A stretch of 62,907 nucleotides of DNA from NCBI GenBank assembly GCA_017420535.1, contig JAFOIV010000015.1:1-62907 (forward strand), given 5' to 3'. Within the stretch, counting starts at the first letter, position 1, and the number at the start of each line of letters is the position of its first letter. The DNA comes from Eubacterium sp. (lineage in GTDB: Bacteria; Bacillota; Clostridia; Lachnospirales; Lachnospiraceae). The notes under the pieces are model-generated. The model worked only from the letters and a program-made list of their open reading frames with translations. It ran no database searches and had not been told where the DNA came from. Below are positions 23,216 to 55,073 of the stretch, piece by piece. Both the position numbers and the translations under genes were made by a program.

Positions 23216-23316
23216 TACAGGCATTAATGCTTCACATATATTGAATAATAGGATAAAATAAAAACACACACAGCACACAACACACAAATTTAATTAAAAA
23301 GGAAGGGATTAACAAC

Positions 23317-42500: not shown

Positions 42501-43521
42501 TGATTATATCATCAGAGAGACAGCAACAATTGATTCATATAAGTTATCAGATAATAGCTACTATGCACATGTAAGTGATGCTGAAGATGCTGTATTTGAA
42601 GGCCTTACTACAGACTTTGAAGGTACAGACAAGGTACAGAACAATACAGTTGTTAACAACAAATATAAGACTGACATCAAGCTTCAGAAGGTTTCAGAAG
42701 CTGATCCTGATGTTAAGTTACCAGGTTCAATCTATGAGCTTTCAAAAGAAGTTGAAGATGAAGAAGGTAATAAGAGTCGCGTTGTTGTTGCAATTGCAAA
42801 GACTGGAATTGATGGTGTTCTCATTCTTAAGGGAGTATTTGCTGATGTAGAATATACTCTTACAGAAGTTGAATCACCTAATGGTTATTATGTTTCAAAG
42901 AATCCTATAAAGGTTTCATTTAAGGTTGTACCGGATCCAGAAGATCCAAGTAAGAATGAAGTTGTATTTGATACAGATTCATTTGATAGTGGTGATGGAA
43001 CTGCAACAATAGATGAAAATGGAAATGTTACATGGTTAGAGCCAGTAACTATCGTTAGATTTGCTAAGTTAGACGAAGCAGGTAACCATCTTTCAGGAGC
43101 AACTCTTCAGGTTGTTGATGAAAATGGCGATGTTGTAGTTGGACCATGGCTTTCAACTGAAGAGGACTATGAAGTATCTGGATTATTTGATGCAAACGAT
43201 GACAAGACATATAAGCTTGTTGAAGTTTCAGCACCAAAGGGATATGAAGTAGCAGCCCCAGTTGAGTTCAAGGTGGACGATAAGAAGATTGGACCTGATG
43301 AGAATTATGTTATTACAGTAAGTATGACAGATAAGAAGAGTAATACACCAGGTACACCACATAAGTCTGATACACCTGAAACACCAAATGATAATCCAGG
43401 CAATAATCCACAGACAGGAGATGATTCACCAATTATCCCTGTTGCAGGACTTATGCTTGTATCATTTACAGGACTTTTCATTATAGGAAAGAAAAAGAGA
43501 AACAAAAGAAAAGCTAATTAA
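30517..43521 (+). CDS. Giant CnaB/SpaA-repeat surface adhesin with NPQTG anchor
   Basis: 4334 residues. An N-terminal signal peptide (RRIIAILMALLMCFTIIVPA, cleavage probably after VNA near residue 43) is followed by a non-repetitive region to about residue 1308 likely to hold the adhesive domains. Residues 1309 to about 3080 consist of four recurring beta-sandwich module types, each ending in a variant of FKNVYTRD. Eight CnaB-type modules follow (3082-3927), then three divergent ones, a Pro/Thr spacer, and NPQTG (4297-4301) with membrane helix and Lys/Arg tail. Lys in KISKxD, Glu in LRETVAPEGY and an Asp/Asn at each module end suggest autocatalytic isopeptide bonds. No sortase gene is in the window. 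Monocistronic, GAGGAG start signal. Confidence 0.92.
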   Translation: METQKRFKLTGRRIIAILMALLMCFTIIVPAGGGGNGLGWVNAQTEDVGNASSGKLVRFTTITLKDVTTGELIVEKGIPTGNRVNENDNVTIMFEFLIGEMDTIEKDENGNYLTFSTEVNTSGGRLKETGSDYLPDTGNSNRDMGDWSLTSDGKLTVNINDKGADSAAEQGNGYVFLKGTGKSIWVTWEGKLDFSGVEDAETGEGMIDVIVAGEKTAVPVNLDDNNISVSKKINQKDGNDVYYDKKSGKYFVDYQINVKTDKGYALINSIEDKAGTTIGDDFYNLQISLKNASGSVSKIDGVTLADLNTAIRTDEELIITYSREVKPDFLNGSDKYYDSDGSRTNKAIVHGRTNHDTKVSPESSPVIYSNSSPAIGKKGEYENGKINWTCYIEIPKDSGISVKTIEDEISHTITPNTATDGNIGAAPSNIKNIANWNQVSDNPIRYEYSYSTDVSELLLEEKNIKAALIKNELNVVFRDQNGEEVTRYIAPVVEVNPGTGESIHTSKATVQKTFEEYNKFKQVSTKYRLLKWEITVTTPSEEDWNDLSYIDLIDDPHTKWLHQYLARRVELQDGTLLYSDSGFNRGQSSNTGYFTDEGKKYFDTSLAEADKTQYPFDIKNGCLKLRLKKDNLSPEKDYTFVVYTRVTDDSKLSTRSFKNTAKVLTTFKDTLTVEEDEDDTAESGVLKTTEKFGEPVGKGGEVEYTVTFDLGAYAKKLHMQNRTLYPNDKIVFYDEIKNGYLEYVPDSAVLSCDMFQNENYRIPYLEFTGNLEVSTDGGKTTFTYTMTDELMKLFDYTTGTFTYHGSQFNPILKINYLAKLTDEEARELTLSEEKENNYSNEVKVSYNGVVVGQDTEDVFLTANKVLDKQYVHQGAKLTYTVTVNPDAVKFNDDGSRLYAKDIAGANLRIIKNSIKVSDENGELEIGSGKNQYDYKIEKDQNGDNVLKFDIPDGKALTITYSALIDVAGNIIQPTDRVANTFYLYKHKDVMEIDRVSKSIESGDFVQDSGGSSARATVRLSKVWFNGQKYVSLSDCKFELYECRVKDGIVLIGDRVSFNRDNNIYMANVDGANTEISIAEEGISVKELDFAKLYLLHETEAPNPLNKTDYYFIVSNDSGNDDSLKITDEQFKEKYLNVTDEDGNSVKINRYKDSNAEFEIEDFVEFELQAKKTVVFDNGNPAPMGTYTFEVNEVDSDSVDAAYIDDGYTASKQNDADGNVDFDPIRITMTSDEEYYYYKVSEDGSSLPTGTTGDDTFYIITMHVKRNDSGEFVHELAYVKYAKDEISGEYIGTPVSADEIKFNNIVESGDAGSIQISKKIKIDGTDKTSLFEDKEYLFTVKDSKNNYYDVDGNKSSDEVTVAVKAGETVTIGGLKPGEYTVVEKESSTPLLEYRYKGLNIDPLLGEVTVVKDEIANVVAVNNYETKTAPVKIIKKDVEDKKLLGGAVFELTGTGLSEAVTKATISATGEVTFDELLYGGTYELKEVKAPDGYALSASSPWTIKVSDSGVVTIQGNGEEHASVYTSAGFVVYNKKAASKLTITKSFSGDVYDSDKEVVHFLVLDEAGKVVKDFHYSEMEDGKMTLDLVPGKYTVIEEPNGREGYTIKTTYSVDSDYEEGIVLKTAYTDDGVKIDLVNDDNMIVSFKNVYSRDTGNIKITKKFVDANNNTIDISSLTEKQKKYIKFIIIGPDDYNGKGFREVSLLDFDNLTYEEKNVPTGEYVIIESWPNGVKVDGYEFDDYVVSKKVNGQTSSEDTIMLGKGDSAEFLFDNIFDTGKGEISITKIIKIDGEDKSDLYSDKAYYFTVKDDLYYYDAAGNKSESEVKIPVKAGEEVKVKNLEPNTYTVAEAEDGTALGDYRFEGVTLSPETGDVVVGAGTTVGVTATNDYVTKTAAIKLIKKDAKDKTTTLGGAKFELTGTGIETTQKITLNANGEVEFDNLLYGGTYELKEVEAPEDYVISKSSPWTVNVASNGVVTIKGADEDSFKTYTSAGYEIFNEKPEAVITVAKTFEGTADDSIKNNVKFLVSDKDGKTVAEFTYADMTDGKKDIAVKPGKYTVSEEAADVSGYTVTRKYSVDSSVDEKDVAEKEYVGDAVSLDVSDKEEVTVAFKNDYVKDTGNLKITKKFINVDDNSSIDISKLTDAEKAKVIFEIEGPDSFDEIITLKDFSSDFTYTFENIPVGEYTITEDNQLTDTKEYTFVDYVVSYKDGESEIEPDFNKVKVTKNSTTESTVTNAYEKKMAVLAVSKTFEGTVSETDKNKVAFEIYDAESKLYAAFTYEDMESGIKTLEVLPGEYTVKEAANDIKGITISKSYKVESSDSDHNASGTYTASGVTVTLANKEKAEVAFNNNYVRDSGKLEITKVFANGDETVDISGLTDEEKASVKFTITGPADYETKTISLLDFDSDMKYQETNVPTGNYKVTETGADGLKISGYTFVSSKVGMKDGTAVPDEGAVLAKDETVSFKVVNKYSRKAYIVVSKAVSGDYTNLTDAEKKNIKFTVKDASENEVASFTLYEMVDSKKTIEVEPDKEYFVVESATDLINYKLSATYERKSDLDSTNNISAVYTIGDKVATNTVHAAETVTVKFTNSYTSKKGSLVIKKNLLLDNEEKKDNTKEFVFNVRNKETGIFYNKVATASEKPQDIKVAAGSTVTIEDLPVGTYEITEVTDKNPEIEGYTYQTTKVGTEEKVVAEVTVKDGLTNDPAEVSFINEYTRDKGYLQIVKSFEDENGKAIDESSVDKSKISFTITGPDGYEKTVAYSEFTDGKYLLTNINTGNYSIKETVSDGSVENYTISTNLSTMSKKDVAVTSDTTEIAELKNVYTRDKGKLKIKKSFSFTKIDGSEANPSLTDEIKENIKFTITGPDDYSLVVTYKDFTNGEYEVSGLAAGTYSVKETGYDTEKLIENYSFVTDSSDVAVKSDLNVTATNEPVATFKNVYTEDYGYLNIRKTVKVDSDSDISNADSNIVDKTFKITVKNADGKYVSAEVDTNNNAVLKDNKNDAVISIKNGEDLTLGRLAAGVYTVEEDKDAALAGDSETAGITLKDLYGLDVTGTGEVTVSKENAASGSPAKTEVVNNYLTRKFVKIIKTDLEGNKLSGAKLEILSSDGTTVVDSWTSDKDKDYFITGLEAGKTYILKETVAPNGYKITTDSTFSFDDEGRVTVNGAASLTTEGKIQTILVKDEATKVSISKVDVTNEKELEGATIQILDENGNVVELNGKKAEWVSTNEPHVIEGLDVEKTYTLRETVAPEGYTIATDTKFELNADGTVNKTKTTTKTNSEGVLLIEDKKTSVKISKVDIANGKEVEGATIQILDKDGNVVKVDGERLEWVSTKTPHEIKGLATGKTYTLKEVIAPEGYTIATETEFELNADGTINTSKTTASINDDGVLLVEDDKISVKISKVDVVGGAEIEGATIQILDKDGNVVRVNGKKLEWVSSNKPYIISGLSSGETYTLRETVAPDGYTVATDTTFVLKADGTVDKERTTTKTDSKGVLLVEDKMTSVKISKVDVTNNEELEGATIQILDENGNVVVANGETLEWVSTKTPKEIKGLAVGKTYTLRETAAPAGYKVATDTKFELNLDGTINTVNTTAYTADGVIFVNDSLTSVKISKKDITNGEELEGATIQILDENGKIVTINGEKIEWVSTKEAHEIKGLETKKKYILRETVAPDGYAITTDTYFELNADGTVNQDATTTNTDKGVLLVEDKMTSVKISKVDIAGGEEIEGATIQILDENENIVTINGEKIEWVSTKEAHEIKGLETKKKYILRETIAPDGYSIATDTYFELKADGTVNTDKTTSKITDEESNSLVIEDELTNVYISKRDISGEVILKGAVIQILNADKTVAKDKDGNEIEFTTTEDEFYKISGLTVGKNYYIHEAKAPEGYKLTADVSFYLNKNGQVEFNGSTKEVSGNTVMLLKDAVTELNFTKVGSVNEDCSDNPNETTPLEGVEFTAELLDNDGNVQTGEKAYKAVAVSNNMGTVVFNNLPAGDYIIRETATIDSYKLSDNSYYAHVSDAEDAVFEGLTTDFEGTDKVQNNTVVNNKYKTDIKLQKVSEADPDVKLPGSIYELSKEVEDEEGNKSRVVVAIAKTGIDGVLILKGVFADVEYTLTEVESPNGYYVSKNPIKVSFKVVPDPEDPSKNEVVFDTDSFDSGDGTATIDENGNVTWLEPVTIVRFAKLDEAGNHLSGATLQVVDENGDVVVGPWLSTEEDYEVSGLFDANDDKTYKLVEVSAPKGYEVAAPVEFKVDDKKIGPDENYVITVSMTDKKSNTPGTPHKSDTPETPNDNPGNNPQTGDDSPIIPVAGLMLVSFTGLFIIGKKKRNKRKAN
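34441..37215 (+). repeat. Tandem duplicated four-module block in the adhesin
   Basis: Four module types occur in order A-B-C-D at about 34441-35835 and again at about 35836-37215. Diagnostic starts are SIQISKKIKIDG/EISITKIIKIDG (A), VKIIKKDVEDK/IKLIKKDAKDK (B), LTITKSFSGD/ITVAKTFEGT (C) and NIKITKKFVD/NLKITKKFIN (D). Further C, D and A-type modules continue to about 39750 in another order. Confidence 0.8.
40066..42297 (+). repeat. Seven tandem 105-108-residue CnaB modules in the adhesin
   Basis: Module starts at 40066, 40384, 40702, 41020, 41335, 41650 and 41974. Nearly all share KISKxD, EGATIQILD, EWVST, an ETVAPEGY-like motif and a terminal VEDK. The fifth and sixth are almost identical over their centres, indicating recent duplication. 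The module before them (39760-40065) is a more diverged relative. Confidence 0.9.
43405..43419 (+). other. NPQTG cell-wall sorting signal
   Basis: Encodes NPQTG at residues 4297-4301, followed by Asp-Asp-Ser, a hydrophobic helix of about 20 residues and KKKRNKRK. This is the standard sortase substrate layout. NPxT motifs are typical for class B-type sortases, for instance in clostridia, rather than the LPxTG of class A. Confidence 0.85.
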
Positions 43522-43532
43522 TTAGCCACTTT

Positions 43533-43565
43533 AAGGCATAGGGTTTTCCCCTATGCCTTTTTTTA
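43533..43565 (+). terminator. Rho-independent terminator of the adhesin gene
   Basis: AAGGCATAGGG, TTTT loop region, CCCTATGCCTT followed by TTTTTT, 12 bp after the adhesin stop codon. Confidence 0.93.
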
Positions 43566-43642
43566 TATGAATAATTCTTTGAGTCAGGGGGCAGCTTAGA
43601 TAATGGAAAATATCCCTTATAGGCTAAGATTATAATTAAGCC

Positions 43643-43671
43643 TTGAAACAAAGACGTTTAATATATATAAT
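43643..43671 (+). promoter_or_regulatory. Promoter candidate for metY
   Basis: TTGAAA (43643-43648), 17-bp spacer and consensus TATAAT (43666-43671), about 85 bp before the start codon. The leader does not contain a recognisable S-box or other riboswitch. Confidence 0.6.
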
Positions 43672-43755
43672 TACTTTAGTTAAATAGAGTTTAAAATAAA
43701 TATTTGCTTTGAGATTTATTTTGGAATTATTGAAAACAAAGCAAAAGGAGGAAAA

Positions 43756-45033
43756 ATGAGACAGGAAACAAAATGTATTCAGGCTGGATATATGCCTAAA
43801 AATGGCGAGTCAAGAATGATACCTATCATTCAGAGTACAACATTTAAGTATGATACAAGTGAAGATATGGGTAAACTTTTTGACCTTGAAGCAGAAGGCT
43901 ATTTCTATACAAGACTTCAGAATCCTACAAATGATTATGTAGCTGCAAAGATTGCATCACTTGAAGGTGGTACAGCTGCAATGCTTACATCATCAGGTCA
44001 GGCTGCATCTTTCTTCTCAGTATTTAATATTGCAAATGCAGGAGATCATGTTATAGCATCAGCATCTATCTATGGCGGAACATTTAATCTTTTTAATGTA
44101 ACTATGAAGAAGATGGGAATTGATTTTACATTTGTAGATCCTGACTGTACAGATGAAGAACTTGAAGCTGCATTTAAGCCTAATACGAAGGCAGTTTTTG
44201 GTGAGACTATTGCAAATCCTGCTCTCATTGTATTTGATATAGAAAGATTCGCAAATGCTGCACATAAACATGGAGTTCCTCTTATCGTTGATAATACTTT
44301 TGCAACTCCTATAAACTGCAGACCATTTGAATTTGGGGCAGATATTGTTATTCATTCAACAACAAAGTATATGGATGGACATGATGCATCAGTTGGTGGT
44401 GTTATTGTTGATTCTGGTAAGTTTGATTGGATGGCTCATAAAGACAAATTCCCTGGACTTACAACTCCTGATGAGTCTTACCATGGAATTACATATGCTG
44501 AAAAATTTGGAAATGCAGGGGCATTTATTACAAAGTGTACTGCTCAGTTAATGAGAGATTTAGGAGCTATTCAGGCTCCAATGAATGCATATTTACTTAA
44601 CCTTGGACTTGAGTCTCTGGCAGTAAGAATGGAAAGACATTGCAGCAATGCCCAGAAGGTAGCTGAATTCCTTGAAGGAAATGATAAAGTTGCCTGGGTT
44701 AATTATCCTGGACTTGAGTCAAATAAATATTATGAAAGAGCAAAGAAATATCTTCCTAATGGAACTTGTGGTGTTGTATCTTTCGGTGTTAAGGGCGGAA
44801 GAAAGGCTGCAGAAGAATTTATGAAGCATCTTAAGGTAGCTATTATTGCTACACATGTTGCAGATGCTCATACCTGTGTCCTTCATCCAGCTTCATCAAC
44901 ACATAGACAGCTTACAGACGAAGAGCTTGTTAAAGGTGGAGTGCTTCCAGATCTTATCAGACTTTCTGTTGGTATTGAAAATGTGGATGATATTATCGAA
45001 GACATTCAGCAGGCATTAGATGCAGTAAAATAA
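43756..45033 (+). CDS. metY: O-acetylhomoserine aminocarboxypropyltransferase
   Basis: 425-residue PLP-dependent enzyme of the Cys/Met metabolism family, making homocysteine (or methionine) from O-acetylhomoserine and a sulfur nucleophile. Landmarks: STTFKYDTSEDM, YFYTRLQNPTNDYVAAKIASLEGG, TSSGQAA, GGTFNLF, VDNTFATPINCRP, and the PLP-lysine motif IHSTTKYMDGHD. The C-terminal HPASSTHRQLTDEEL and RLSVGIENVDDI complete the family pattern. AAGGAGG precedes the ATG. It is monocistronic with an exceptionally long terminator stem. Confidence 0.94.
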   Translation: MRQETKCIQAGYMPKNGESRMIPIIQSTTFKYDTSEDMGKLFDLEAEGYFYTRLQNPTNDYVAAKIASLEGGTAAMLTSSGQAASFFSVFNIANAGDHVIASASIYGGTFNLFNVTMKKMGIDFTFVDPDCTDEELEAAFKPNTKAVFGETIANPALIVFDIERFANAAHKHGVPLIVDNTFATPINCRPFEFGADIVIHSTTKYMDGHDASVGGVIVDSGKFDWMAHKDKFPGLTTPDESYHGITYAEKFGNAGAFITKCTAQLMRDLGAIQAPMNAYLLNLGLESLAVRMERHCSNAQKVAEFLEGNDKVAWVNYPGLESNKYYERAKKYLPNGTCGVVSFGVKGGRKAAEEFMKHLKVAIIATHVADAHTCVLHPASSTHRQLTDEELVKGGVLPDLIRLSVGIENVDDIIEDIQQALDAVK

Positions 45034-45047
45034 TATATCTTTAATAT

Positions 45048-45100
45048 AAAAGAGCAATATTCCCGGGTTATGTGCAGCCCGGGAATATTGCTCTTTTTTT
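45048..45100 (+). terminator. Long-stem terminator after metY
   Basis: A perfect 20-bp stem, AAAAGAGCAATATTCCCGGG (45048-45067) against its complement at 45078-45097, with a 10-nt loop and T-run. Confidence 0.95.
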
Positions 45101-45104
45101 GCCA

Positions 45105-45197
45105 TTACTTACTTTTAGGATAGTATATTACAAAAAAGTGCATACTTGTAATAGGTATTAATTTTGAGTATAAATAATACTTGTTTGTTCGAACAAA
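45105..45197 (+). promoter_or_regulatory. Nitroreductase promoter region, copy A of a duplicated regulatory element
   Basis: Contains upstream TTACTTAC (45105-45112), an inverted repeat TATTACAA (45126-45133)/TTGTAATA (45146-45153) covering a -35 TTGTAA, a 17-bp spacer, a -10 TATAAA (45169-45174) and the perfect palindrome TTTGTTCGAACAAA (45184-45197). The first 76 bp align without gaps to 46344-46419, upstream of the peptide operon, at 61 positions. Probably the binding target of the HxlR-type regulator encoded nearby. Confidence 0.8.
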
Positions 45198-45236
45198 GCA
45201 ACGTCGGTATATATTAAGAAGCGAGGAAAGTATATA

Positions 45237-45755
45237 ATGGATTTTTTATCATTAGCAAAGCAGCGTTGTTCTGTAAGAAAATATAAGAAGGATGCAGTTG
45301 AAGCAGAAAAGTTAGAAAAGTTACTTGAGGCTGCACGTGTTGCTCCTACAGCAGCAAATATGCAGTCACACAGACTTTTAGTTGTTAAGAGTGAAGAAGG
45401 CTTAGCAAAGCTTTCTAAGGACGTAAATTTCCACGGTGCACCACTTGCCATCGTAGTATGTGGTGATCATTCAGAAGTTTTCGTACGTCCATTTGATATG
45501 AAGGATATGGTGGATGTAGATGCAACAATCGTTGCAGATCACATTGTATTAGAAGCTGAAGATTTAGGACTTAGCACATGCTGGCTTACATATTTTGAGC
45601 CATCAGTAATAAGAAAGGAATTTAATATTCCTAAGAACCTTGAGCCGGTAGCTATCATTGCTGTTGGTTATGCGGCTTCTGCAAAGACATCTCCTGACAG
45701 ACATGCATTTGACAGAAAAGAAGTAAGTGAATTTGTTTTTAATGAAACATTTTAA
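45237..45755 (+). CDS. Nitroreductase-family flavoprotein
   Basis: 172 residues, FMN-dependent NAD(P)H oxidoreductase fold. It begins DFLSLAKQRCSVRKYKKDAV, followed by ARVAPTAANMQSHRLLVV with FMN-phosphate contacts, a DMVDVDATIVADHIVLEAEDLGL helix (in parts: VADHIVLEAEDLG) and STCWLTYFEP. The C-terminal PVAIIAVGYA is also typical. Such enzymes reduce nitro compounds, quinones or enones and are often controlled by redox-sensing HxlR regulators; one is encoded convergently. The start has GCGAGGAAAG upstream. Its promoter is shared in sequence with the peptide operon. Confidence 0.9.
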   Translation: MDFLSLAKQRCSVRKYKKDAVEAEKLEKLLEAARVAPTAANMQSHRLLVVKSEEGLAKLSKDVNFHGAPLAIVVCGDHSEVFVRPFDMKDMVDVDATIVADHIVLEAEDLGLSTCWLTYFEPSVIRKEFNIPKNLEPVAIIAVGYAASAKTSPDRHAFDRKEVSEFVFNETF

Positions 45756-45775
45756 TGAATAAATAATAGATATTA

Positions 45776-45799
45776 AAGGGGGCTTAAGCCCCCTTATTT
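45776..45799. terminator. Bidirectional terminator between nitroreductase and HxlR genes
   Basis: AAGGGGGC, TTAA, GCCCCCTT: perfect, fully symmetrical hairpin between convergent genes; tails are AT-rich on both sides. Confidence 0.8.
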
Positions 45800-46160
45800 A
45801 TATTAACTTAAGTTTATTTGGACATATAGTAGAATGAATAGCTGTTTTACTTAGATAATCAGCTCCCCAGGAACACATTGAATTAAGAACCGGTATTAAA
45901 GTTTTTCCAAATTCTGAAAGAGAATATTCTACTTTTGGAGGCACAATTGGATAAACCCTGCGGATAAGAAGGCCATCATATTCTAATTCTCTTAATTGAG
46001 CTGTTAATACCTTTGGTGTTGCATTTGGAATAAGTCTGCTAAGCTCGTTGAATCTTAGTGTTTTGTTGATAAGGTGCCAAATGATCAATGCTTTATATTT
46101 TCCGCCTATCAATTGAATAGTTGCTTCTACAGGACATTTGTATGTCTGACAAGTTTTCAC
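45798..46160 (-). CDS. HxlR-type winged-helix regulator
   Basis: 120 residues with HxlR/DUF24 landmarks: CPVEATIQLIGGKYKALIIWHL, LRFNELSRLIPNATPKVLTAQLRELE, DGLLIRRVYPIVPPKVEYSLSEFG (each partly quoted: GGKYKALIIWHL, PPKVEYSLSEFG). Cysteines at residues 4 and 9 correspond to the N-terminal redox-sensing Cys of YodB/HypR-like members. The start is GTG, 7 bp after AGGAGG. It lies between two operons with near-identical promoter regions, the nitroreductase gene and the peptide locus, and is the obvious candidate to control both. Confidence 0.9.
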   Translation of the reverse strand: MKTCQTYKCPVEATIQLIGGKYKALIIWHLINKTLRFNELSRLIPNATPKVLTAQLRELEYDGLLIRRVYPIVPPKVEYSLSEFGKTLIPVLNSMCSWGADYLSKTAIHSTICPNKLKLI

Positions 46161-46186
46161 GCAAGTTACCTCCTGATTGAAATGTG

Positions 46187-46232
46187 TATCTAATAGTAAT
46201 TTTTCATTTGTTCAATTGTTGGTTACTAGATA
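46187..46232 (-). promoter_or_regulatory. Candidate autoregulatory inverted repeat of the HxlR gene
   Basis: TATCTAATAGTAA (46187-46199) and TTACTAGATA (46223-46232) form an imperfect inverted repeat just upstream of the HxlR start. The interval 46161-46470 holds no gene; besides this repeat it contains the divergent promoter of the peptide operon and AT-rich sequence. Confidence 0.35.
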
Positions 46233-46343
46233 TTATTTAAAGTATGCTCAAACATAATAAATTAATTATATAAAATAAAAAAAGAATATCAAGGGGTTAA
46301 ACGTATAACCTGTTTAGTTATTATTTTAAGAAGGAATGTAGCC

Positions 46344-46431
46344 TTACTTACCTTTAAGATAGTTAATTACGAAAAAGTGCGTACTTGTAATAGAATTCAT
46401 TTTATACTACAAATAATACATGTTCGAACAT
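46344..46431 (+). promoter_or_regulatory. Peptide-operon promoter region, copy B of the duplicated element
   Basis: TTACTTAC (46344-46351), a degraded version of the inverted repeat around the -35 TTGTAA (46385-46390), 17-bp spacer, -10 TACAAA (46408-46413), then the perfect palindrome ATGTTCGAACAT (46420-46431). Order and spacing match copy A at 45105-45197; downstream similarity continues through CAACGT to the ribosome-binding region. Confidence 0.8.
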
Positions 46432-46470
46432 ATCAACGTTGATGTATTTTATAAGATAGGAGGAAAACAA

Positions 46471-46587
46471 ATGGAAAGACCAGAGTATGTAAATGGCTTT
46501 ACTTGCTCAATTTCTCTTGCGTTAGCGTCGGCTATAATTCCAAGTGGATTATGGTTAGCGTGCGGATATGTTATGGTAGCGGCTTAA
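46471..46587 (+). CDS. Putative RiPP precursor peptide
   Basis: 38 codons starting 7 bp after TAGGAGG at the head of an operon with a radical SAM maturase, TldD/TldE-like peptidases and an ABC exporter. The peptide has a short polar start (MERPEYVNGF) followed by a hydrophobic Ala/Ser/Leu/Ile-rich core with two cysteines at residues 12 and 31, a central IIPSGLW turn, and a VMVAA end. The size, position and composition suggest a precursor whose cysteines are joined in thioether links by the radical SAM enzyme (sactipeptide-like). I do not recognise it as a known class. No double-Gly leader is present. Modification and bioactivity are inference. Confidence 0.72.
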   Translation: MERPEYVNGFTCSISLALASAIIPSGLWLACGYVMVAA

Positions 46588-46606
46588 TAAAGAGATTGTA
46601 AGGAAG

Positions 46607-46640
46607 GATGTGTGTCGCAAGATGCACATCTTATTTTATT
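46607..46640 (+). terminator. Attenuator-like hairpin between precursor and maturase genes
   Basis: GATGTGTGTC (46607-46616) and GATGCACATC (46621-46630) form a 10-bp stem with two wobble pairs and a GCAA loop, followed by TTATTTTATT. It would partly terminate transcription after the precursor, giving more peptide mRNA than maturase mRNA, as in many bacteriocin operons. Confidence 0.55.
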
Positions 46641-46662
46641 AATTTATGAGGTGATAGTTGAT

Positions 46663-47964
46663 ATGTATCCTGTATTAAATGAAATGATTTATTTAGAAAA
46701 AAAACAACCAACTTATTCGGATTTTTCTATTAAATATAATGGAATGGATTTGAAATTTTCTGTTAATAACACAGCAGCCGATATTTTGGAATTGTGCAAT
46801 GGAGAGAATTCTATAGCCGATATTGTAGATTCTTTGGCTGAAAAATTTAATGAAGATATAAATAAAGTATATTTATTTGTGAATGAATTTATAGAAAATT
46901 CAGTAAAGATAGGTAATGTAATAATAAGGAGTGAGGTATCACAAAAAAGAGAATTACAGATAATAGGAACTAGTGATTATTGGTCGTTGGATTTGGTGTC
47001 TATAGAGTTAACATATACTTGTCCTCTTAATTGCAGACATTGTTACGCGAATGCGGGAAAAGGAAATTTTATATCATACGATTTGGTTGATAAGATTTTA
47101 ACAGAATGTAAAGAATTTGGGAAACCGCAGATTCAGCTTACTGGAGGGGAACCGTTAACACATCCGGATTTTTTTAGAATAGTAAAGAAGGCCGTAGACA
47201 ATGATTTTAATGTGGTTATTTTTACAAGTGGATATATTGACAATGAGACTATTATTAATAAAATAATGAAATTTCCAAGAGAAAGGGTTTCGTTTCAAAT
47301 AAGTGTTGATGGTCTTGAAGAATATCATAACAGATTTAGAGGGAGAAGTGATGCGTTTAGAACGACAGAGAACTTTATAAAGAAATTATGCAAAATGGGG
47401 TTTCGAGTTACAACAGCAACATGCATAGATGATTAAGAATATGATGAGTTATATACATTAGTTTGCAGGATGAGAAAAAACGGAGTGAGATTAATGAGAT
47501 TTAGTCCGCTTATGAATAAGGGGAGGGCTCATAATATTGATAAAAAAATATGTTTTAAAAATGATATACAGCCAATGATAGCAAAATTAGCCATGGAATT
47601 TAATTCTGATGAATTTAGAGTATTGTATTTTGAAGAAGGAGAAGAGAATATAAATTTTAAATATAAAAATAATTGTGGCTTGGGACAAAATATAATTAGA
47701 GTTGCTCCTAATGGTGATGTTTATCCGTGTTTGCTGACTAATATTAAATATTCTAATGTGAAAAATGAGGCGTTAAAGGAAATACAAAAAAAGTATAGCA
47801 GATTGTGGGAAAAGGTATATAGTCCAGCAGAGAAAATCTGTAAAGATTGTGTTGAAAGAAAGAACTGTGGTCGGTGCGTAAGTATGGGATTGGATAAATG
47901 TGACAAAAATGAAAGCTTTTTTTTAAAGAGTATTTCTAGCATTTCAAAAATGATTGGTGAATAA
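46663..47964 (+). pseudogene. Radical SAM/SPASM peptide maturase with PqqD-like domain, interrupted by in-frame TAA
   Basis: 434 codons including one internal TAA at 47434-47436. Residues 15-85 form a PqqD-like RiPP recognition domain (AADILELCNGENSIADIV). The radical SAM core begins ELTYTCPLNCRHCYANAG, with CxxxCxxC at Cys120, Cys124 and Cys127, and has an LTGGEPLTHPDF motif. The SPASM part starts NNCGLGQNIIRVAPNGDVYPC and continues with CKDCVERKNCGRC for auxiliary Fe-S clusters. The frame is the same on both sides of the stop (TCIDD, stop, EYDELYTLV), so a single substitution such as GAA or CAA to TAA explains it. The start ATG follows GAGGTGAT. If full length, it would crosslink the upstream peptide. 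Confidence 0.85.
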
Positions 47965-47966
47965 AA

Positions 47967-49121
47967 ATGACAGTAATTGAAAATAAATATGAACGAAAAA
48001 TACGATATGAAAATGCCAATACGGCAGCAGAAGAAAAAATTATTTCAGGATTAATTGAAAAAAAAGACGATCTCATAAAAAAGACAGAAAAAAGGATAGA
48101 TGTAGAATTTTTTGATCAGATAAGGATATTTAAAGGTAATAATGATGAATTATATACAGTCTTCGATAAAATGTATAAAGCATGTGAATTTTATGATAAA
48201 AAATTTGCTGCGATAGTAACTCAAGAGCTTCGAGAGGTGTCATGGTGCGAAGGAAAAAAGAAGACAGATATTAAGAATGTAATACGAATAATGGTGCATC
48301 AAAATAATTCGGATTGTAAATATAGGGATATTCCATTCTTTTCAAATAAAAAAAGATTGAATGAAATTATGTTGAAAGAATTGAGCGAATTGTTGGATGA
48401 TTCAAAATGCAGCTATAAAGAATTTAAAGGAGGAAAAATGGATGTTATTTTTTCTCCGCGAGCAGCGGCTTATTTTGTACATGAAATCCTGGGGCATCCT
48501 TTAGAACTTGATTTGATAAGTACAAACAAATCGATATATAAAGAAAAGAATATAGATGAAAAAATAATGCCAGAATATATAAATGTTTCTGAATGCCCAG
48601 AGGATACTAGGCAAATAGGAATGATTTATGGGGATTATGACGATGAGGGAAAAGATTTAATTAATACGGATATTATTAAAGGCGGAGTGCTTGTTAGTCC
48701 TATAACATATAAAAGATGCAGTGAGATGAAAAGAGAAACATTAAATAGAATGCATAATTTTATTTTGAGGCCAAATGAAAGTGGATGTTCTTTGGATAGA
48801 ATAATTGCAAGAAGTTCAAATGCAATAGTAATAGATGATGTTTTATATGGTTATTATAATCTGGCTATGGGAGATTTTATGCTTTATTGTGGTAAGTCAA
48901 GAAGAGTTAAAAATGGAGAGGTGGTAAGTTACCATTTCGGTGTACGAATAAATGAAAAAATATTGGAATTAAAGAATATTATTAAAGAAATTGGGAATGA
49001 TTACAACGCTACTTTGGGCTTTTGCTCGAAACAAAATCAGATAATTACTGTAGGAATGGGGGCGCCGTCTATGGTTTTATCAGATATTAACGTAACAGGG
49101 GGAAGTGAAAATGTTATATGA
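47967..49121 (+). CDS. TldD-type zinc metallopeptidase
   Basis: 384 residues, a compact member of the TldD/PmbA family. The zinc-binding HEILGH (residues 172-177) sits in VHEILGHPLELD, matching the family's HExxxH plus downstream acidic residue. The C-terminal half keeps the typical beta-rich end (VGMGAPSMVLSDINVTGG). Escherichia coli TldD/TldE form a heterodimeric peptidase that removes the leader of microcin B17; a second, TldE-like gene follows and overlaps by 11 bp, so leader removal from the 38-residue peptide is the natural hypothesis. It follows the maturase gene by 2 bp with GGTGA as ribosome site. Confidence 0.87.
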   Translation: MTVIENKYERKIRYENANTAAEEKIISGLIEKKDDLIKKTEKRIDVEFFDQIRIFKGNNDELYTVFDKMYKACEFYDKKFAAIVTQELREVSWCEGKKKTDIKNVIRIMVHQNNSDCKYRDIPFFSNKKRLNEIMLKELSELLDDSKCSYKEFKGGKMDVIFSPRAAAYFVHEILGHPLELDLISTNKSIYKEKNIDEKIMPEYINVSECPEDTRQIGMIYGDYDDEGKDLINTDIIKGGVLVSPITYKRCSEMKRETLNRMHNFILRPNESGCSLDRIIARSSNAIVIDDVLYGYYNLAMGDFMLYCGKSRRVKNGEVVSYHFGVRINEKILELKNIIKEIGNDYNATLGFCSKQNQIITVGMGAPSMVLSDINVTGGSENVI

Positions 49122-50320
49122 AAAGATATTAATAGATCAAGGTGTTGAAAAGTTTTGGTTAATAAAACACAAGATTGATAGATATGTATGTTCTTTTGTT
49201 AATGGTGTTAGAAGAATTGAAGAGACAGAAGATCGAATAAATGAATTATTTTTTATAAAGAATAATAATTTGTATAAGATAGCGTTTGGTATTATTGATG
49301 ATGATAGCTTGTTTAAAGAACTAATTGATAAATCTGTAAAAAATTCTAAATTTACAGTAAAAAATCCGCTAATTAAATTACCATCAATAAAAGCGCCAGA
49401 TATTTGTAAAGAGAAAATATTTTATTTCAATGAATGCAAAAGAATAATTGATTCAGAACTAAAAAAAAGTTAGTAATCCTAGTATTCAGCTAAAATTTGA
49501 CATGTCTGTTGATAATTCTTTTCTGTATTATGAAAGGAAAAAAGTATCAAAAACAATAAGCGAAAATAATCTTGAGATATTGGATTTTGAACGGATGGAT
49601 TATAAAAAATATGATAATCTTAAAATTAAACCAGGTTTTTTAGAAAAAGTAATAAATTCTGATTCTCAAAATGATATTATTCAAAATGAAGAATTATTTG
49701 TAGACGTATGTGAAGCAAAATATATGAGAATAGATTCAAAAGTTTTTTCGGAAGTTCTTATTATTTTAGAGGAAGCATTTAAGGGTTTTTTTGTAATGAA
49801 TAATCAATCATTTATTAAAAAAAATGATTTTGGAAAAGCAATATGTAACGAAAAAATAAGCATAAAGAAAGTGGTCAATAATTATGTGTTTGACTCTGAA
49901 GGGATGGAATGTAAAAATAAATATTTAATTAAAAAAGGAATCCTAGAAAACTGTTTAAATAATATTTATACTGCATCTGTGTTGAAATTAGAGCCAGGAG
50001 ATAGTGTATATAATTATGAACTTGGAAATCATGTTATTGGGGCTAAAAAATTAATTATGGAATATGATAAGTGTAGGGAGATCGTTCCAGAAGCAGATAT
50101 TTATATCGTTCAGATTAAAAAAGACACTATATCTTTTGACTTCGATAGTGGTTATTTTCAAGCAGTTTTTATTGGTAAAGAAAAAAACAAGAAAATAAGA
50201 TATATGATGAGATGTAATATAATAGATTTGTTAAATAGTATAGTAGCTGTTATAGATAATAATTATGATACAGATAGTTATGAAAAAGATGTTATACTTG
50301 ATTTAGGTAAACTAAAGTGA
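49111..50320 (+). pseudogene. TldE/PmbA-like peptidase partner, split by a frameshift at an A8 run
   Basis: Two pieces: 120 residues from the ATG at 49111 to a TAG at 49471-49473, and about 280 residues in the next frame ending at 50320. Removing one A from the run of eight at 49461-49468 joins them as SELKK-VSNPSIQLKFDMSVDNSF, giving about 402 residues, the right size for a partner of the 384-residue TldD. The second half keeps the family's late strands (ASVLKLEPGDS, NHVIGAKKL, SFDFDSGYFQAVF). It lacks HExxxH, as TldE proteins do. A single-base insertion, a sequencing error, or slippage on the homopolymer are all possible. An ATG at 49502 could start the second piece separately but has no convincing ribosome site. 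Confidence 0.72.
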
Positions 50321-50330
50321 GGCGTGATAT

Positions 50331-51590
50331 ATGTATCGAGTGATGATAAAAAAAGAATTAAAATCAATTCTGTATTCAAAAAAAATTTTAATATCTATTG
50401 CTTTTGCCTGTTTATATATGCTGATTCTTGATATTGTGGCGGTTCTACCATTTTCTACGCCGATATTTAATATTGGTATAGGTCGTATGCTTAAAGGCTT
50501 TAGCCTTATAGGAGCGTTTCTTTGTTCTGAGATTATTTTTTATTCCATGATAGATGAAAATCGTTATAAGACGTGGGATATTATAAAATTAAGTAAAATA
50601 TCGATTAATAAGATCATTCTATCAAAGATATTCGTTCCGACAACAATATCGATTACGGTTATTTATATAAGTGCCTTTATAAATAATATTGGAAAAAAAT
50701 TTGTGGATGAGCTATATTACGTTCCTTTTTTGAATCTAAAATACTTTTTTATAATATTTTTTTGTTCATTAGGGGTTCAGCTTTTTAGCATGGGGAGATG
50801 TGCCAACAGAGAAGAAATGTTCGCTAATACAGATTATGTTTCATGCGTATTCAATCTATTATATGTGATTGTTTTTTGGATGGAAGAATTAATAGGTGTA
50901 TATACTGTATTGCTTTCTATGTTACTTACGGTAATTGCTTATTTATATACATTAAAAAAATTTGTCCGGATGTCTGATGAAAAAAGAAAAAGACTATATT
51001 ATTATCGGATTAAAAAAGAAGGTAAAATTGAGGCGTTTTTTGCAAGAGAGATGGGGCGCTTACTGGCAAATAAAAAGGGATTAATAAAATTAGCAGGAGT
51101 TTTTGCCTGTTCTCCATTTATTTTTAACATACCATATAAGAATATTGTAAAGCTTATATTATTTATGGTTTTATCCTTTCAAATACTTATAACTATTGTT
51201 TTAGATATTAATCTAGAATCTATATTTTCTGAGAAAAAAGAAAATATGGAAGATGTTTTAGCAGTAGCGGGAATATCAAAGAAGATTAATTATTTGTATT
51301 CTGCAAAGTTCTCTATTATAATAACTGGTCTTGTGTTTGTATTAATGGCTATTCTAAATATAATACTGTTTTTCATGAATAAATCTGTTGTGGGTATATG
51401 GATAGTGATGGTAGGCTTTTTGATCACTTCTATTTTTTCTTTAATTTATACCTGTTTATATACAAGTAGACATTTTTTAGACTTGAAGGATGTTAAATTA
51501 ATAAGGAAGAATGTTACTATTTGTTCAGCAGTGATTTATTTGTTGGTATGTGGCATTCTATATTGTCTTAAAGGGGGAATTATTTTATGA
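50331..51590 (+). CDS. ABC transporter permease of the peptide locus
   Basis: 419-residue membrane protein with about 10-12 hydrophobic segments in two halves separated by a charged stretch (around residues 210-245, rich in Lys/Arg/Tyr). The arrangement suits a single-chain ABC-2-like exporter that pairs with the ATPase gene overlapping its end by 4 bp. Being fifth in the peptide operon, export of, or self-protection from, the mature peptide is inferred. Codon use is A-rich with many AAA and ATA codons, like the rest of the locus. Confidence 0.75.
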   Translation: MYRVMIKKELKSILYSKKILISIAFACLYMLILDIVAVLPFSTPIFNIGIGRMLKGFSLIGAFLCSEIIFYSMIDENRYKTWDIIKLSKISINKIILSKIFVPTTISITVIYISAFINNIGKKFVDELYYVPFLNLKYFFIIFFCSLGVQLFSMGRCANREEMFANTDYVSCVFNLLYVIVFWMEELIGVYTVLLSMLLTVIAYLYTLKKFVRMSDEKRKRLYYYRIKKEGKIEAFFAREMGRLLANKKGLIKLAGVFACSPFIFNIPYKNIVKLILFMVLSFQILITIVLDINLESIFSEKKENMEDVLAVAGISKKINYLYSAKFSIIITGLVFVLMAILNIILFFMNKSVVGIWIVMVGFLITSIFSLIYTCLYTSRHFLDLKDVKLIRKNVTICSAVIYLLVCGILYCLKGGIIL

Positions 51591-52186
51591 AAGATATGAT
51601 GATAAAGGCGGATGAGATTTCTTTTGCATATCCTGGAGGAGAAGAGATCATTTCTGATTTTTCCTATGAGTTTAGTGCTAATAAGTCTTATATCATATGT
51701 GGAGAAAATGGATGTGGTAAGACTACTATTACAAGACTTCTCCTTGGACTTTTAAAACCTGATAGTGGAAAAATAGAAAAGAGTGATGGGGCAGTCATTT
51801 CTTATGTTCCAGATAATAATGGAATGTATGAGAACCTGACATTAAAGGATAATATCCTTTTTCGTTTAGGTATATATAATAAGAAATTTAAAGATATAGA
51901 GAAAAAATATAGTGACTGGATGAAAAAGTTCAGGCTTGTTAACTATACCGAAACCCTGGTAAAAGATCTTTCTCTAGGAACTAAGAAAAAGGTGGCATTA
52001 TTATGTGCCATGTTGGTAGAACCAGATATCATCTTCCTTGATGAACCTACAGGGGGACTGGATTTTGGGGCCCAGAAAGAGCTCATCAAAATGCTTAATG
52101 TAATAAAGGATTATACCATGATAATCACAGTTACTCATGATGATTATTTTATTAAAAACTTTGAAAGTGAAATGATCTATCTTTAA
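51587..52186 (+). CDS. ABC transporter ATP-binding protein of the peptide locus
   Basis: 199 residues, short but complete ABC ATPase: Walker A GENGCGKTT, a Q-loop-equivalent region SYVPDNNGMYENLT, signature LSLGTKKKVALL, Walker B IIFLDEPTGGLDF, and switch His in VTHDD. The signature is LSLGT rather than LSGGQ, a common variant in peptide exporters. Start overlaps the permease gene. It is the last gene of the operon; a bidirectional hairpin follows before convergent mgtE. Confidence 0.9.
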   Translation: MKDMMIKADEISFAYPGGEEIISDFSYEFSANKSYIICGENGCGKTTITRLLLGLLKPDSGKIEKSDGAVISYVPDNNGMYENLTLKDNILFRLGIYNKKFKDIEKKYSDWMKKFRLVNYTETLVKDLSLGTKKKVALLCAMLVEPDIIFLDEPTGGLDFGAQKELIKMLNVIKDYTMIITVTHDDYFIKNFESEMIYL

Positions 52187-52296
52187 TCCTAAAAACTAAT
52201 AAACCAGCTCCAATATAATAAAAGATATGTAAATCATCCCTCAAATGAGCAATAGTGATGGACTGAAAAAGTATCCATACCCAGCCAAAAAATAAT

Positions 52297-52370
52297 AAAA
52301 GACGCGAAAAGAATTCCTCCAAAGGGCATTTTTAGCCCGCTGGAGGAATCCTTTTCGCGTCTTATTTATT
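52297..52370. terminator. Long bidirectional terminator between the peptide locus and mgtE
   Basis: AAGACGCGAAAAG then ATTCCTCCA pair with TGGAGGAAT then CTTTTCGCGTCTT (single mismatch), with an inner GGGC/GCCC stem and A/T-rich tails both ways. The rest of 52187-52409 shows nothing recognisable. Confidence 0.85.
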
Positions 52371-52409
52371 TTGGCGTCCCTTCGTTCATTATATTTGGGT
52401 GTTCGTCTG

Positions 52410-53762
52410 TTAGTTAATATGCAGGATGAGCTTCGCAATATTAAAGTACAGCAGAAGTGATACCGCATCAACTATAGTTGTTATAAATGGACTGGCCATT
52501 ACTGCCGGATCAAGCTTTATCTTCTTTGCAAGTATAGGAAGTGTACAACCTACAAATTTTGCTACGATAACAACAAAGAAGAGAGTTCCACATACAGTAA
52601 GTGCGATCATTACTTTGATCCTGTCAATCAGGATAAGTTTTATAAAGTTAGCTACGGCTAAAGTGATACCGCAAAGTAATGCTACAAGAAGTTCTTTTCC
52701 CTGGATCTTAAAGATATCTTCAAAGTGGATCTCGTCAAGTGAGATACCACGCACGATAGAAACTGAAGCCTGCTGACCTGAATTTCCGCCGGTATCCATA
52801 AGCATTGGAATGTAGCTTGTAAGAACTACATAAGTTGCGAGAGCTGCTTCAAAATGTGAAATGATAGCTCCTGTAAATGTAGCCGAGATCATAAGAAGAA
52901 GCAGCCAAGGTATACGCTTCTTATAAGTCTCTAAAACGCTGGTCTTCATATATGGTTTATCAGAAGGTGTGATAGCGTTCATGATTTCGATATCTTCAGT
53001 ATTTTCTTCCTGAATTACGTCGATTACGTCATCGAAGGTTATAATACCAACAAGACGTTTCTCTTTATCAACAACTGGAAGAGCAAGGAAGTTATATTTA
53101 TCAAAGGTATGCGCAACTTCTTCCTGGTCATCTAAAGTGTTAACATAGATAGCATTTTCTTCCATGATATCTGAGATCTTTGCATCCCGGGAAGAAAGAA
53201 GAAGATCTTTAACTGTTACGATACCTATCAGTTCTTTCTTTAAGTTGGTAACATAGCAGGTATAAATGGTCTCCTTATCAACGCCTACTTTTCTGATGCG
53301 GTCAAAAGACTGCTTTACAGTCATAGACTCTTCAAGTCTTACATACTCGGTGGTCATGATGCTGCCGGCACTGTCCTCAGGATACTTTAAAAGTTCGTTG
53401 ATCTCGCGACGAGTCACCGGATCAGTAGCTTTAAGAATACGTTTTACCACATTGGCAGGCATTTCTTCGATCATATCAACAGTATCATCTAAGAAAAGGT
53501 TATCAATGATATAATTAAGTTCCTTATCAGAGAAGGCTGAAATTAATTGCTCCTGGGTATCTGACTCCAGATAAGAAAATGTGTCAGCAGCCAGCTCTTT
53601 GGGGAGGATCCTAAAGGCGATAGGAAGCTGTTCTGCGTCAAGTTCGCTTATTATTTCAGCTAGATCGGCTTCATTTTGTTCGGCAAGGATTTCTCTTGCT
53701 TCATGAAGTTTCCTTTCAGTGATGAGTTGTTTTAAGTTTTCGATGTTGAATTCAACTGTCAT
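52410..53762 (-). CDS. mgtE: Magnesium transporter MgtE
   Basis: 450-residue Mg2+ channel. An N-terminal superhelical domain (about 1-125), two CBS domains (about 130-255: TTEYVRLEESMTVKQSF and the GIVTVKDLL, GIITFDDVIDVI strands) and five C-terminal membrane helices with the pore-lining TGGNSGQQAS segment are present. The N and CBS domains sense cytosolic Mg2+ and close the pore. The ATG at 53762 has AGGAG at correct distance, whereas the GTG at 53771 would sit on the ribosome site. Expression is probably monocistronic, after the dut terminator. Confidence 0.94.
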   Translation of the reverse strand: MTVEFNIENLKQLITERKLHEAREILAEQNEADLAEIISELDAEQLPIAFRILPKELAADTFSYLESDTQEQLISAFSDKELNYIIDNLFLDDTVDMIEEMPANVVKRILKATDPVTRREINELLKYPEDSAGSIMTTEYVRLEESMTVKQSFDRIRKVGVDKETIYTCYVTNLKKELIGIVTVKDLLLSSRDAKISDIMEENAIYVNTLDDQEEVAHTFDKYNFLALPVVDKEKRLVGIITFDDVIDVIQEENTEDIEIMNAITPSDKPYMKTSVLETYKKRIPWLLLLMISATFTGAIISHFEAALATYVVLTSYIPMLMDTGGNSGQQASVSIVRGISLDEIHFEDIFKIQGKELLVALLCGITLAVANFIKLILIDRIKVMIALTVCGTLFFVVIVAKFVGCTLPILAKKIKLDPAVMASPFITTIVDAVSLLLYFNIAKLILHIN

Positions 53763-53783
53763 TTTACTCACACTCCTTTCTCA

Positions 53784-53816
53784 AATAAAAAACGCCGGGA
53801 ATAAAATCTCGGCGTT
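53784..53816 (-). terminator. Terminator of dut on the minus strand
   Basis: Read on the minus strand: AACGCCGAGA, loop, TCCCGGCGTT followed by TTTTATTT. Lies 25 bp beyond the dut stop. Confidence 0.85.
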
Positions 53817-53840
53817 AGGATCAGAATTCATATTTAAAAG

Positions 53841-54290
53841 TTATTTTCTGCCTGTAGAACCAAAACCACCGGCACCTCGCTCTGTCTCTGAGAGCTCATC
53901 TACTTCATTAAAGATGCCCATGATATATGGTGTGATGACAAGCTGCGCAATTCTTTCATTAGGTTCAATCTCTGCATCAACCTTAGAATGATTATGGAGC
54001 GCAACCATAACTTCTCCGCGGTAATCTGAATCTATAACACCGACTTTATTTGCGGGGGCAAGCCCCTTTTTACTGGCAAGACCACTTCTTGCATATATAA
54101 GACCTGCATATCCTTCAGGTAATTCAAGAGAAATACCAGTTGGTATCATAACAGTCTCACTGGCTTTCACAATAACAGCGCTGTCAACACAGGCATAAAG
54201 GTCTGCACCGGCAGCGTTAATAGACCCGTAAGTCGGGATAGTAGCGTTAGGTTTTATTCTTTTGATATTAACTGGAATCTTCTCTACCAT
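53841..54290 (-). CDS. dut: dUTP diphosphatase
   Basis: 149-residue trimeric dUTPase that keeps uracil out of DNA and supplies dUMP. All five family motifs are visible: AAGADLYA (motif 1), LIYARSGLASKKGL (2), VGVIDSDYRGEV (3), ERIAQLVI (4) and RGAGGFGSTGR (5, the C-terminal arm closing the active site). It lies 91 bp after nrdG on the same strand, a sensible pairing for deoxynucleotide metabolism. Confidence 0.96.
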   Translation of the reverse strand: MVEKIPVNIKRIKPNATIPTYGSINAAGADLYACVDSAVIVKASETVMIPTGISLELPEGYAGLIYARSGLASKKGLAPANKVGVIDSDYRGEVMVALHNHSKVDAEIEPNERIAQLVITPYIMGIFNEVDELSETERGAGGFGSTGRK

Positions 54291-54381
54291 TTTTTTTCCT
54301 TCTATAAATAATAGTATAAATAGTTTTTAATTCTGAGATATCTTACAAATTGACTGCTTCGTATCTTGACAGGTATCAGTA

Positions 54382-54915
54382 TTAAAGTGTTTCTTGTTCA
54401 TCCCACAGAACAACGTTTCCCGCGGCTCTGGTTTTGTTCATATCAATGATACGTTGATTGGATGAACCTCTGAAACGAAGAGTGATATCTTTTTTATCTA
54501 TTTCAAAACGTCCGTCAACTAATACGTCAATTAGATTAATCAGAGACTTTGTCTCAGGCACCTTCTGTATCATATCACACATTATCTCTTTTTCAAAGTC
54601 ATATCCGGTAAAACACCAGATGGTTTTGTCGGGATAAACCGATTTTACTTTCTTTATCAGAGAAAGAATTGCTCCCTGATTAGCAGGATCAAGGGGTTCT
54701 CCTCCAAGAAGAGTGAGTCCTTTGATATGAACAGGTGACATGGAATCTAATATTTCTTTGATGGTTTCTTCCGTAAAAGGTGTCCCATAATTAAAATCCC
54801 AGGCTATCTCATTAAAACAACCTTTACAATGGTGGTTGCAGCCTGAAACGAAAAGAGAAACTCTTACACCTGGACCATTTGCTATATCATTCTTTTTTAT
54901 TGCTGCATATTTCAT
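54382..54915 (-). CDS. nrdG: Anaerobic ribonucleotide reductase activating protein
   Basis: 177-residue radical SAM activase that installs the glycyl radical on NrdD. The cluster motif is in FVSGCNHHCKGCFNEIAWDF (CxxxCxxC), followed by the GGEPLDPANQG motif. It implies strictly or facultatively anaerobic growth. NrdD is not in the window, which is less usual since the two are commonly adjacent. AAAGGA precedes the ATG. Confidence 0.93.
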   Translation of the reverse strand: MKYAAIKKNDIANGPGVRVSLFVSGCNHHCKGCFNEIAWDFNYGTPFTEETIKEILDSMSPVHIKGLTLLGGEPLDPANQGAILSLIKKVKSVYPDKTIWCFTGYDFEKEIMCDMIQKVPETKSLINLIDVLVDGRFEIDKKDITLRFRGSSNQRIIDMNKTRAAGNVVLWDEQETL

Positions 54916-55073
54916 GATAATCCTTTCAAGGGTGTATATGTTAAATCCTGTTTCGTATTATAACATAATTAAAGCATAAATCTCTTTATTTTTTGCTATT
55001 AATGTGCTATAAAAATAAGGTGGCGTTTTTGAATGTCCATAGACTTATATTATTCAATTGAGAGGGAATTAAA

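Follow-up and report, generated by a model that had tools for sequence, protein, structure and literature searches.

A probably decayed peptide operon of Eubacterium sp. combines a radical SAM/SPASM gene with a TldD/TldE pair

A stretch of 62,907 nucleotides of Eubacterium sp. DNA (contig JAFOIV010000015.1; the whole stretch is referred to as the window) carries, according to its list of open reading frames (ORFs) and its sequence, a row of genes at positions 46471-52186 of the + strand. They code for a 38-amino-acid (aa) peptide, a PqqD-radical S-adenosylmethionine (SAM)-SPASM enzyme, TldD, TldE and a two-gene ABC transporter. On balance, we consider it probable that this row is a decayed operon for a ribosomally synthesized and post-translationally modified peptide (RiPP), of a recurring type that joins radical SAM to TldD/TldE. 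It would resemble the sactipeptide systems most and would employ a dedicated TldD/TldE pair instead of the proteases AlbE and AlbF. This reading is based on the gene families, the metal ligands of TldD, the stem-loop and strong ribosome site of the peptide gene, an intact relative operon whose enzyme is nearest to SkfB, the presence of radical SAM genes at four of the eight TldD/TldE pairs of one genome, and a related arrangement on an Anaerococcus plasmid.

The gene content, including the two cysteines of the peptide, had been proposed in a preliminary description of the locus and is confirmed by ORFs and Pfam matches and, for the permease, by hydrophobicity. The same holds for its remark that the locus is more A/T-rich than its neighbours: G+C content is 26-31% in 1-kb segments from 46001 to 52000 and 35-39% in the two segments before and the three after. 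An in-frame stop interrupts the radical SAM gene and a frameshift the TldE gene; that these two operon genes are broken had not been stated outright but was hinted at by the call for an "intact orthologous maturase" in a proposed test. Because of this damage the peptide product is probably no longer made, and the copy of the operon in Eubacterium sp. is probably a relic. Nine translations were scanned, eight of the operon and one of the neighbouring HxlR-type regulator. Among the Pfam and NCBIfam matches listed, none was to YcaO, and none in the operon proteins was to a peptidase other than TldD/TldE; Pfam gave no B12-binding or MNIO-type match in the nine.

The peptide gene, preceded by a strong ribosome site, is one of two ORFs of 25-60 aa with such a site in the 5243 intergenic bp of the window. 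Its cysteines are Cys12 and Cys31. By analogy with subtilosin, the leader would be approximately MERPEYVN and the core would comprise about 30 residues with both cysteines, the cut and any bridge pattern being predictions. The stem-loop between peptide and maturase genes is likely a partial terminator; a terminator-like stem-loop after the peptide gene fits a precursor made in excess, as expected. Two related loci, L053 and L023, also have stem-loops, located immediately 5' of the radical SAM gene (z -3.79 and -5.44, respectively). These lack the T-rich tail, so only that of the window is terminator-like.

The maturase gene begins within ORF 46612-47436, which encodes the PqqD domain (PF05402, 4e-8) and the radical SAM domain (PF04055, 1e-21). 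Although this ORF opens at GTG 46612, the start is likely ATG 46663, since the relative in L053 begins with MYP as well. We considered whether the gene is split in two by design and rejected this: the match to the relative in L023 extends past the TAA codon (26% identity over 73 residues, E 4e-6), so a single interrupted gene is present. PF05402 and PF13186 both score above their cut-offs, split over two pieces in the window and united in a single protein in L053, and the CX3CX2C motif is found in both enzymes (CPLNCRHC and CPLICRHC, respectively). The closest solved structure to the N-terminal piece is SkfB (6efn, E 4e-14). Within its class, this piece is matched by 4 of 391 genomes (1e-22), within its family by 1 of 397 (1e-24) and within its phylum by 2 of 319 (1e-26), where, as in all homologue counts given here, the window's own genome is included and the samples overlap. 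An enzyme 29% identical to the window maturase is present on an Anaerococcus plasmid, following a Cys-rich peptide of 41 aa; its best model is AlbA (101 bits, cut-off 850).

The best solved relative of the window TldD is TldD of Escherichia coli (5nj5, E 2e-5). His172, His177 and Cys353 occupy the three metal-ligand positions, Glu173 lies within HExxxH, and the remote cysteine is retained. In the TldE gene, the frame changes near an A-run at about 49465; the first piece (49105-49473) has no Pfam match, and no HExxxH is present in the ORF translations of either piece. The permease has no family match above cut-off in Pfam or NCBIfam, and searching it on plasmids gave nothing useful. Matches to TldD were found in 4 of 299 same-family (1e-8), 1 of 61 same-genus (1e-6) and 7 of 391 same-class genomes (1e-10), the best other match in these samples being 26% identical (genome G714). 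Scans of genome contigs with narrow TldD patterns returned 408 pattern matches without a relative in one case and 45 matches with two distant TldD relatives in another, none of them close, and a motif look at the neighbours of these two saw no evident radical SAM maturase. A TldD search of viral contigs, a search of the locus DNA in phages and an Rfam search of 43000-55000 likewise yielded nothing useful. The window TldD forms a long branch and is not placed by TldD trees. The window genome also contains a second, ordinary TldD/TldE pair on another contig, with no radical SAM neighbour.

Table 1. Features of the peptide operon and its upstream neighbourhood; positions refer to the window
Feature	Position	Strand	Remarks
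Promoter-sized repeat, first copy, 5' of nitroreductase gene	45105..45216	+	direct repeats D1 (81 nt, 80%) and D2 (31 nt, 81%) with 46344-46451
Nitroreductase-type gene (presumed), 172 aa	45237..45755	+	70% DNA identity to its G351 counterpart, which is divergent from HxlR
HxlR-type regulator gene, divergent from peptide operon	45798..46160	-	PF01638 4e-32
Promoter-sized repeat, second copy, 5' of peptide gene	46344..46451	+	putative, likely promoter/operator
Candidate precursor peptide	46471..46587	+	38 aa, MERPEYVNGFTCSISLALASAIIPSGLWLACGYVMVAA; AGGAGG-N7-ATG
Stem-loop with T-rich tail, between peptide and maturase	46605..46632	+	fold z -3.84, 0/200 shuffles as stable
Radical SAM maturase, N-terminal piece (PqqD + radical SAM)	46663..47436	+	ends at in-frame TAA 47434-47436; Pfam, NCBIfam
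Maturase remainder past stop, SPASM	47437..47964 (ORF 47470-47964)	+	PF13186 1e-7; TIGR04085 30.1 bits, cut-off 27
TldD-type metalloprotease, 384 aa, HEILGH	47967..49121	+	PF19289 (TldD/PmbA C-terminal domain) 4e-31
TldE-like partner, broken (49105-49473 and 49502-50320)	49105..50320	+	PF19289 1e-16 in second piece
ABC permease-like membrane protein	50331..51590	+	about 11 hydrophobic stretches; overlaps ATPase gene
ABC transporter ATPase	51587..52186	+	ABC_tran PF00005 1e-24

The preliminary description had suggested searching for homologous operons headed by a short Cys peptide gene, and a same-phylum search did find one. L053, in genome G985, is an intact operon of the same content, arranged as 40-aa peptide, stem-loop, PqqD-radical SAM-SPASM enzyme, ABC ATPase, permease, TldD and TldE; compared with the window, the ABC pair thus precedes TldD/TldE. 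The operon stands behind integrase- and transposase-type genes. Its peptide (MNTPAYKGKKIAGCVGCAVVGLNPGLVSFPCIPWYVAAAV) has a strong ribosome site and three cysteines. The radical SAM protein (437 aa, PF04055) is 34% identical to the N-terminal and 28% to the C-terminal piece of the window maturase, and its best model is SkfB (157.3 bits, the next reaching 123). In trees of 10 rows, the radical SAM proteins of the window, L023 and L053 form a group with support of 89/87 for full rows and 92/90 for the first 300 residues, which is under the program's starred level. Among 12 other TldDs, the window protein scores best with that of L053 (91 bits, next 72). The permeases of the two operons have no BLAST match to one another. 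In viral contigs a search with the L053 radical SAM protein gave no relative, and one with an alignment gave two weak ones. The two peptides have MxxPxY and a YV-rich end in common, and in both loci a Cys-containing small peptide adjoins the maturase, which suggests a role as its substrate.

In the favoured reading, the 38-aa peptide would be the precursor, beginning with a short charged leader that is followed by some 30 residues of hydrophobic core. The leader would be held by the PqqD-like domain, and the radical SAM/SPASM enzyme would cross-link the core, most likely by a bond between Cys sulfur and alpha carbon as in SkfB and AlbA. TldD/TldE would digest the leader as far as the cross-linked core, and the ABC pair would export the product or protect the producer. 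According to the available passages of the literature, TldD/TldE digests from the N terminus until blocked by modification and needs about 15 N-terminal residues for its active site (PMC10885120), and subtilosin, whose leader has seven residues, comes with AlbE/AlbF as putative proteases and AlbC as a putative ABC transporter (PMC5100339). The sactipeptide systems of SkfB (sporulation killing factor) and AlbA (subtilosin A) share with the window a maturase with PqqD/RRE-type, radical SAM and SPASM domains, a small Cys peptide with short leader and an ABC transporter. The window and L053 differ from them by TldD/TldE instead of AlbE/AlbF, by only two cysteines in the window peptide and by scores under the curated cut-offs. 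Judged by its sequence, the window operon would thus work like a radical SAM RiPP system, with sactipeptides as a candidate class only.

Several observations weigh against this proposal. The enzyme of L053 stays below the curated cut-offs of both SkfB (300) and AlbA (103.4 bits against 850), and the N-terminal piece of the window maturase, being half a protein, has heme b synthase as its best NCBIfam model (72.4 bits), with SkfB at 59.9 (cut-off 300) and AlbA at 52.7 (cut-off 850). Only 11 residues precede the first cysteine of the window peptide, fewer than the approximately 15 needed by TldD/TldE, which counts against trimming of the leader by this protease. The alignment of window and L053 peptides was equalled by 773 of 5000 shuffles. 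Homology of the two was therefore rejected as proven, and the conserved two-Cys peptide family that had been anticipated was not established, the L053 peptide having three cysteines; we regard the two as apparently of the same place and kind, not as demonstrable homologues. The TldD of L053 scores higher with nine unlinked or other TldDs (122-197 bits) than with that of the window, so common descent of the whole radical SAM-TldD/TldE pairing is unproven. L023 (genome G604) has neither TldD in the 19.5 kb covered nor CX3CX2C, so a radical SAM relative without the protease exists; the relatives in L050 and L025 have no TldD in view either. L023 may be a decayed or a repurposed relative that lost the motif. 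The cross-link in either peptide is itself a prediction, and a B12 radical SAM enzyme together with a TldD protease is already known from biphenomycin clusters. As a separate observation, the radical SAM relative in L023 (6639-10462) is preceded by a pair resembling a response regulator and a histidine kinase, and by a possible peptide ORF of 17 aa.

The biphenomycin clusters also bear on the claim that radical SAM and TldD/TldE without YcaO is no described class. Biphenomycins are in print, and as far as the accessible passages go, their clusters (pbs, bpm/bip) resemble the window in a radical SAM enzyme and a TldD-type protease, with YcaO not reported there (PMC12257519, PMC12707348). They differ by a B12 radical SAM enzyme, MNIO, hydroxylases, a self-sufficient TldD without TldE and another precursor. 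No description of a PqqD-radical SAM-SPASM enzyme with a TldD/TldE pair was found in the open-access PMC literature. Microcin B17 employs YcaO-type azole chemistry, unlike the window. Its heterodimeric TldD/TldE has the His, His, Cys metal ligands also present in the window, as described in the passages on the E. coli protein (PMC5810440), and is encoded outside the microcin cluster (PMC10885120). The cluster of ammosamide, a pearlin, contains a dedicated TldD/TldE-like pair, Amm12/Amm13, and in this it is like the window; the available part of the source describes release of a small product (PMC12715798). It differs from the window in its PEARL chemistry and in that a dipeptide is released from the C terminus.

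Recurrence of the association was assessed by a domain search of four genomes. G985 alone has 16 TldD/TldE matches, forming eight pairs. At four of them (L053, L060, L062 and L064) radical SAM genes lie in the same gene row; in the fetched loci of the remaining four (L058, L059, L061, L063) none was seen. Short peptide genes accompany three of the four linked pairs (L053, L060, L062); those of L060 and L062 are unrelated in sequence. By Pfam, L060 and L062 each encode four radical SAM proteins and L064 encodes one. The B12-binding cut-off is passed by one protein of L062 and by that of L064, and one protein of L060 matches this domain at a score under the cut-off.

Outside G985, locus L015 (4593-14630 of G714) contains a 44-aa peptide with a Trp repeat and the end DWAATADWAATANWAATSDWAE, a radical SAM/SPASM enzyme nearest to PapB (208 bits, cut-off 340), two SDR-type genes (one tested), a 429-aa protein with a weak M14 match only, TldD and an MFS transporter. 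In the place of TldE there is a 353-aa protein without TldD/TldE match, and the locus is therefore counted as radical SAM and TldD with this protein as a further neighbour. The operon is flanked by recombinase genes. About 18 kb from its TldD, L065 (6196-10303 of G714) carries a second TldD that is divergent too (HEIIGH), accompanied by TldE and an ABC pair; no radical SAM gene was seen at this locus. On the Parabacteroides distasonis plasmid NZ_OY725834.1, a radical SAM/SPASM gene is directly followed by TldD and TldE (L007, 6032-10116), the TldD starting with what we read as a twin-arginine-like signal (MNINRRDFIKTGG).

As the radical SAM subtypes differ between these loci, we read them as products of repeated assembly. 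Our wider proposal is more tentative, and we put it at somewhat less than even: radical SAM with dedicated TldD/TldE would make up a kind of RiPP operon that recurs and has largely escaped description, repeatedly assembled with different subtypes (SkfB-like with SPASM, PapB-like with SPASM, B12-type) and precursors (hydrophobic Cys peptides, a Trp repeat peptide and others), in which TldD/TldE would act as a general protease trimming up to the cross-link, and of which one genome could hold several, as the four in G985. The same diversity may be turned against a Cys thioether in the window. The modification could be an ether, C-C or cyclophane link or a D-residue, with TldD/TldE still trimming the leader, as TldD is found with a PapB-like enzyme and Trp repeat peptide in L015, with B12-type enzymes in L060, L062 and L064 and, in the passages cited above, in biphenomycin clusters; the sactipeptide family is also not the closest to the window N-terminal piece among NCBIfam models. 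We hold this rather unlikely, given that the L053 enzyme is nearest to SkfB by a clear margin and that cysteines are present in both window-type peptides.

Intergenic ORFs of 25-60 aa with a strong ribosome site occur in five of six radical SAM loci (the window, L053, L060, L062 and L015; not L064) and in three of eight TldD/TldE loci without a radical SAM gene (L058, L065, L067; none in L016, L059, L061, L063 and L066). The numbers are small, the stretches are unequal in length and L007 is not included; the contrast rests more on position, the short ORF being either the first gene of the radical SAM operon or enclosed in it. The three control loci could be taken to mean that the 38-aa ORF is no substrate, only a leader ORF or a chance one, and that the enzymes of this relic locus had another substrate. 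Two broken genes, the lack of a demonstrable relationship between the window and L053 peptides, and plasmid searches in which both gave only matches with E above 1 would agree with this. We nevertheless find it improbable in view of the strong ribosome site, the ORF's own stem-loop and the comparable Cys peptide at the same place in L053.

If the wider proposal is true, a radical SAM gene adjoining TldD and TldE would be a simple genome-mining handle for peptide products at which searches based on YcaO or on the named maturases of sactipeptides are not aimed. It would also give a testable role to some of the numerous TldD/TldE pairs without assigned function. With its intact operon, L053 is open to a direct test of the question, the broken window copy serving as a pointer.

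Position 46344, at which the stretch singled out by the preliminary description starts, is also the start of the second copy of a promoter-sized repeat (Table 1). Besides the window's own genome, G351 is the sole one of 61 same-genus genomes that matches both the HxlR gene and its neighbour, which we take to be a nitroreductase gene. In G351 these two genes are divergent and the repeat core (38 of 47 bases) lies between them. Because of this, and because the peptide operon is itself divergent from the HxlR gene, the operon is probably part of the regulon of the adjacent HxlR-type regulator, and the nitroreductase gene probably belongs to the same regulon. The nearest NCBIfam model of the regulator is RrpA (101 bits, under its cut-off of 185). 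Such redox-type neighbours with a common promoter region, together with the PqqD fusion and the SDR-type genes of L015, might suggest a peptide-derived redox cofactor following the logic of PQQ or mycofactocin, with TldD/TldE cutting the precursor down to a small modified residue, much as a small product is freed in the ammosamide system according to the part of the source cited above (PMC12715798). The long hydrophobic core and the ABC pair speak against it, as does Pfam, which finds no dehydrogenase among the operon proteins scanned, and we judge this explanation quite improbable.

The site itself was compared with two same-genus genomes, G308 and G342, whose mgtE flank is 91% identical (the left flank of G351, locus L040, is outside this comparison). 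Both are without 45148-52410 and thus have neither nitroreductase nor HxlR gene; about 225-250 bp of repeat-like DNA takes the place of this segment. They retain the first 43 bases of the repeat 5' of the nitroreductase gene, that is, part of its promoter region, and loss in these genomes is therefore as likely as gain in the window. Recent insertion as the sole reading of the A/T-rich island was accordingly rejected, and the acquisition suggested earlier is one possibility. The repeat-like DNA at this site (about 11881-12129 of L038 in G342 and about 3097-3323 of L039 in G308) has internal direct and inverted copies and looks like a small non-coding mobile repeat.

Two further observations concern other parts of the window, both on the + strand. 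At 30517-43521, one ORF of 4334 aa contains 13 SpaA prealbumin-like domain stretches and DUF5979, corresponding to a giant surface or pilin-like protein. At 20522-25722, two neighbouring proteins of the GH94 family are encoded, the first of which matches the catalytic and supersandwich domains only in part.

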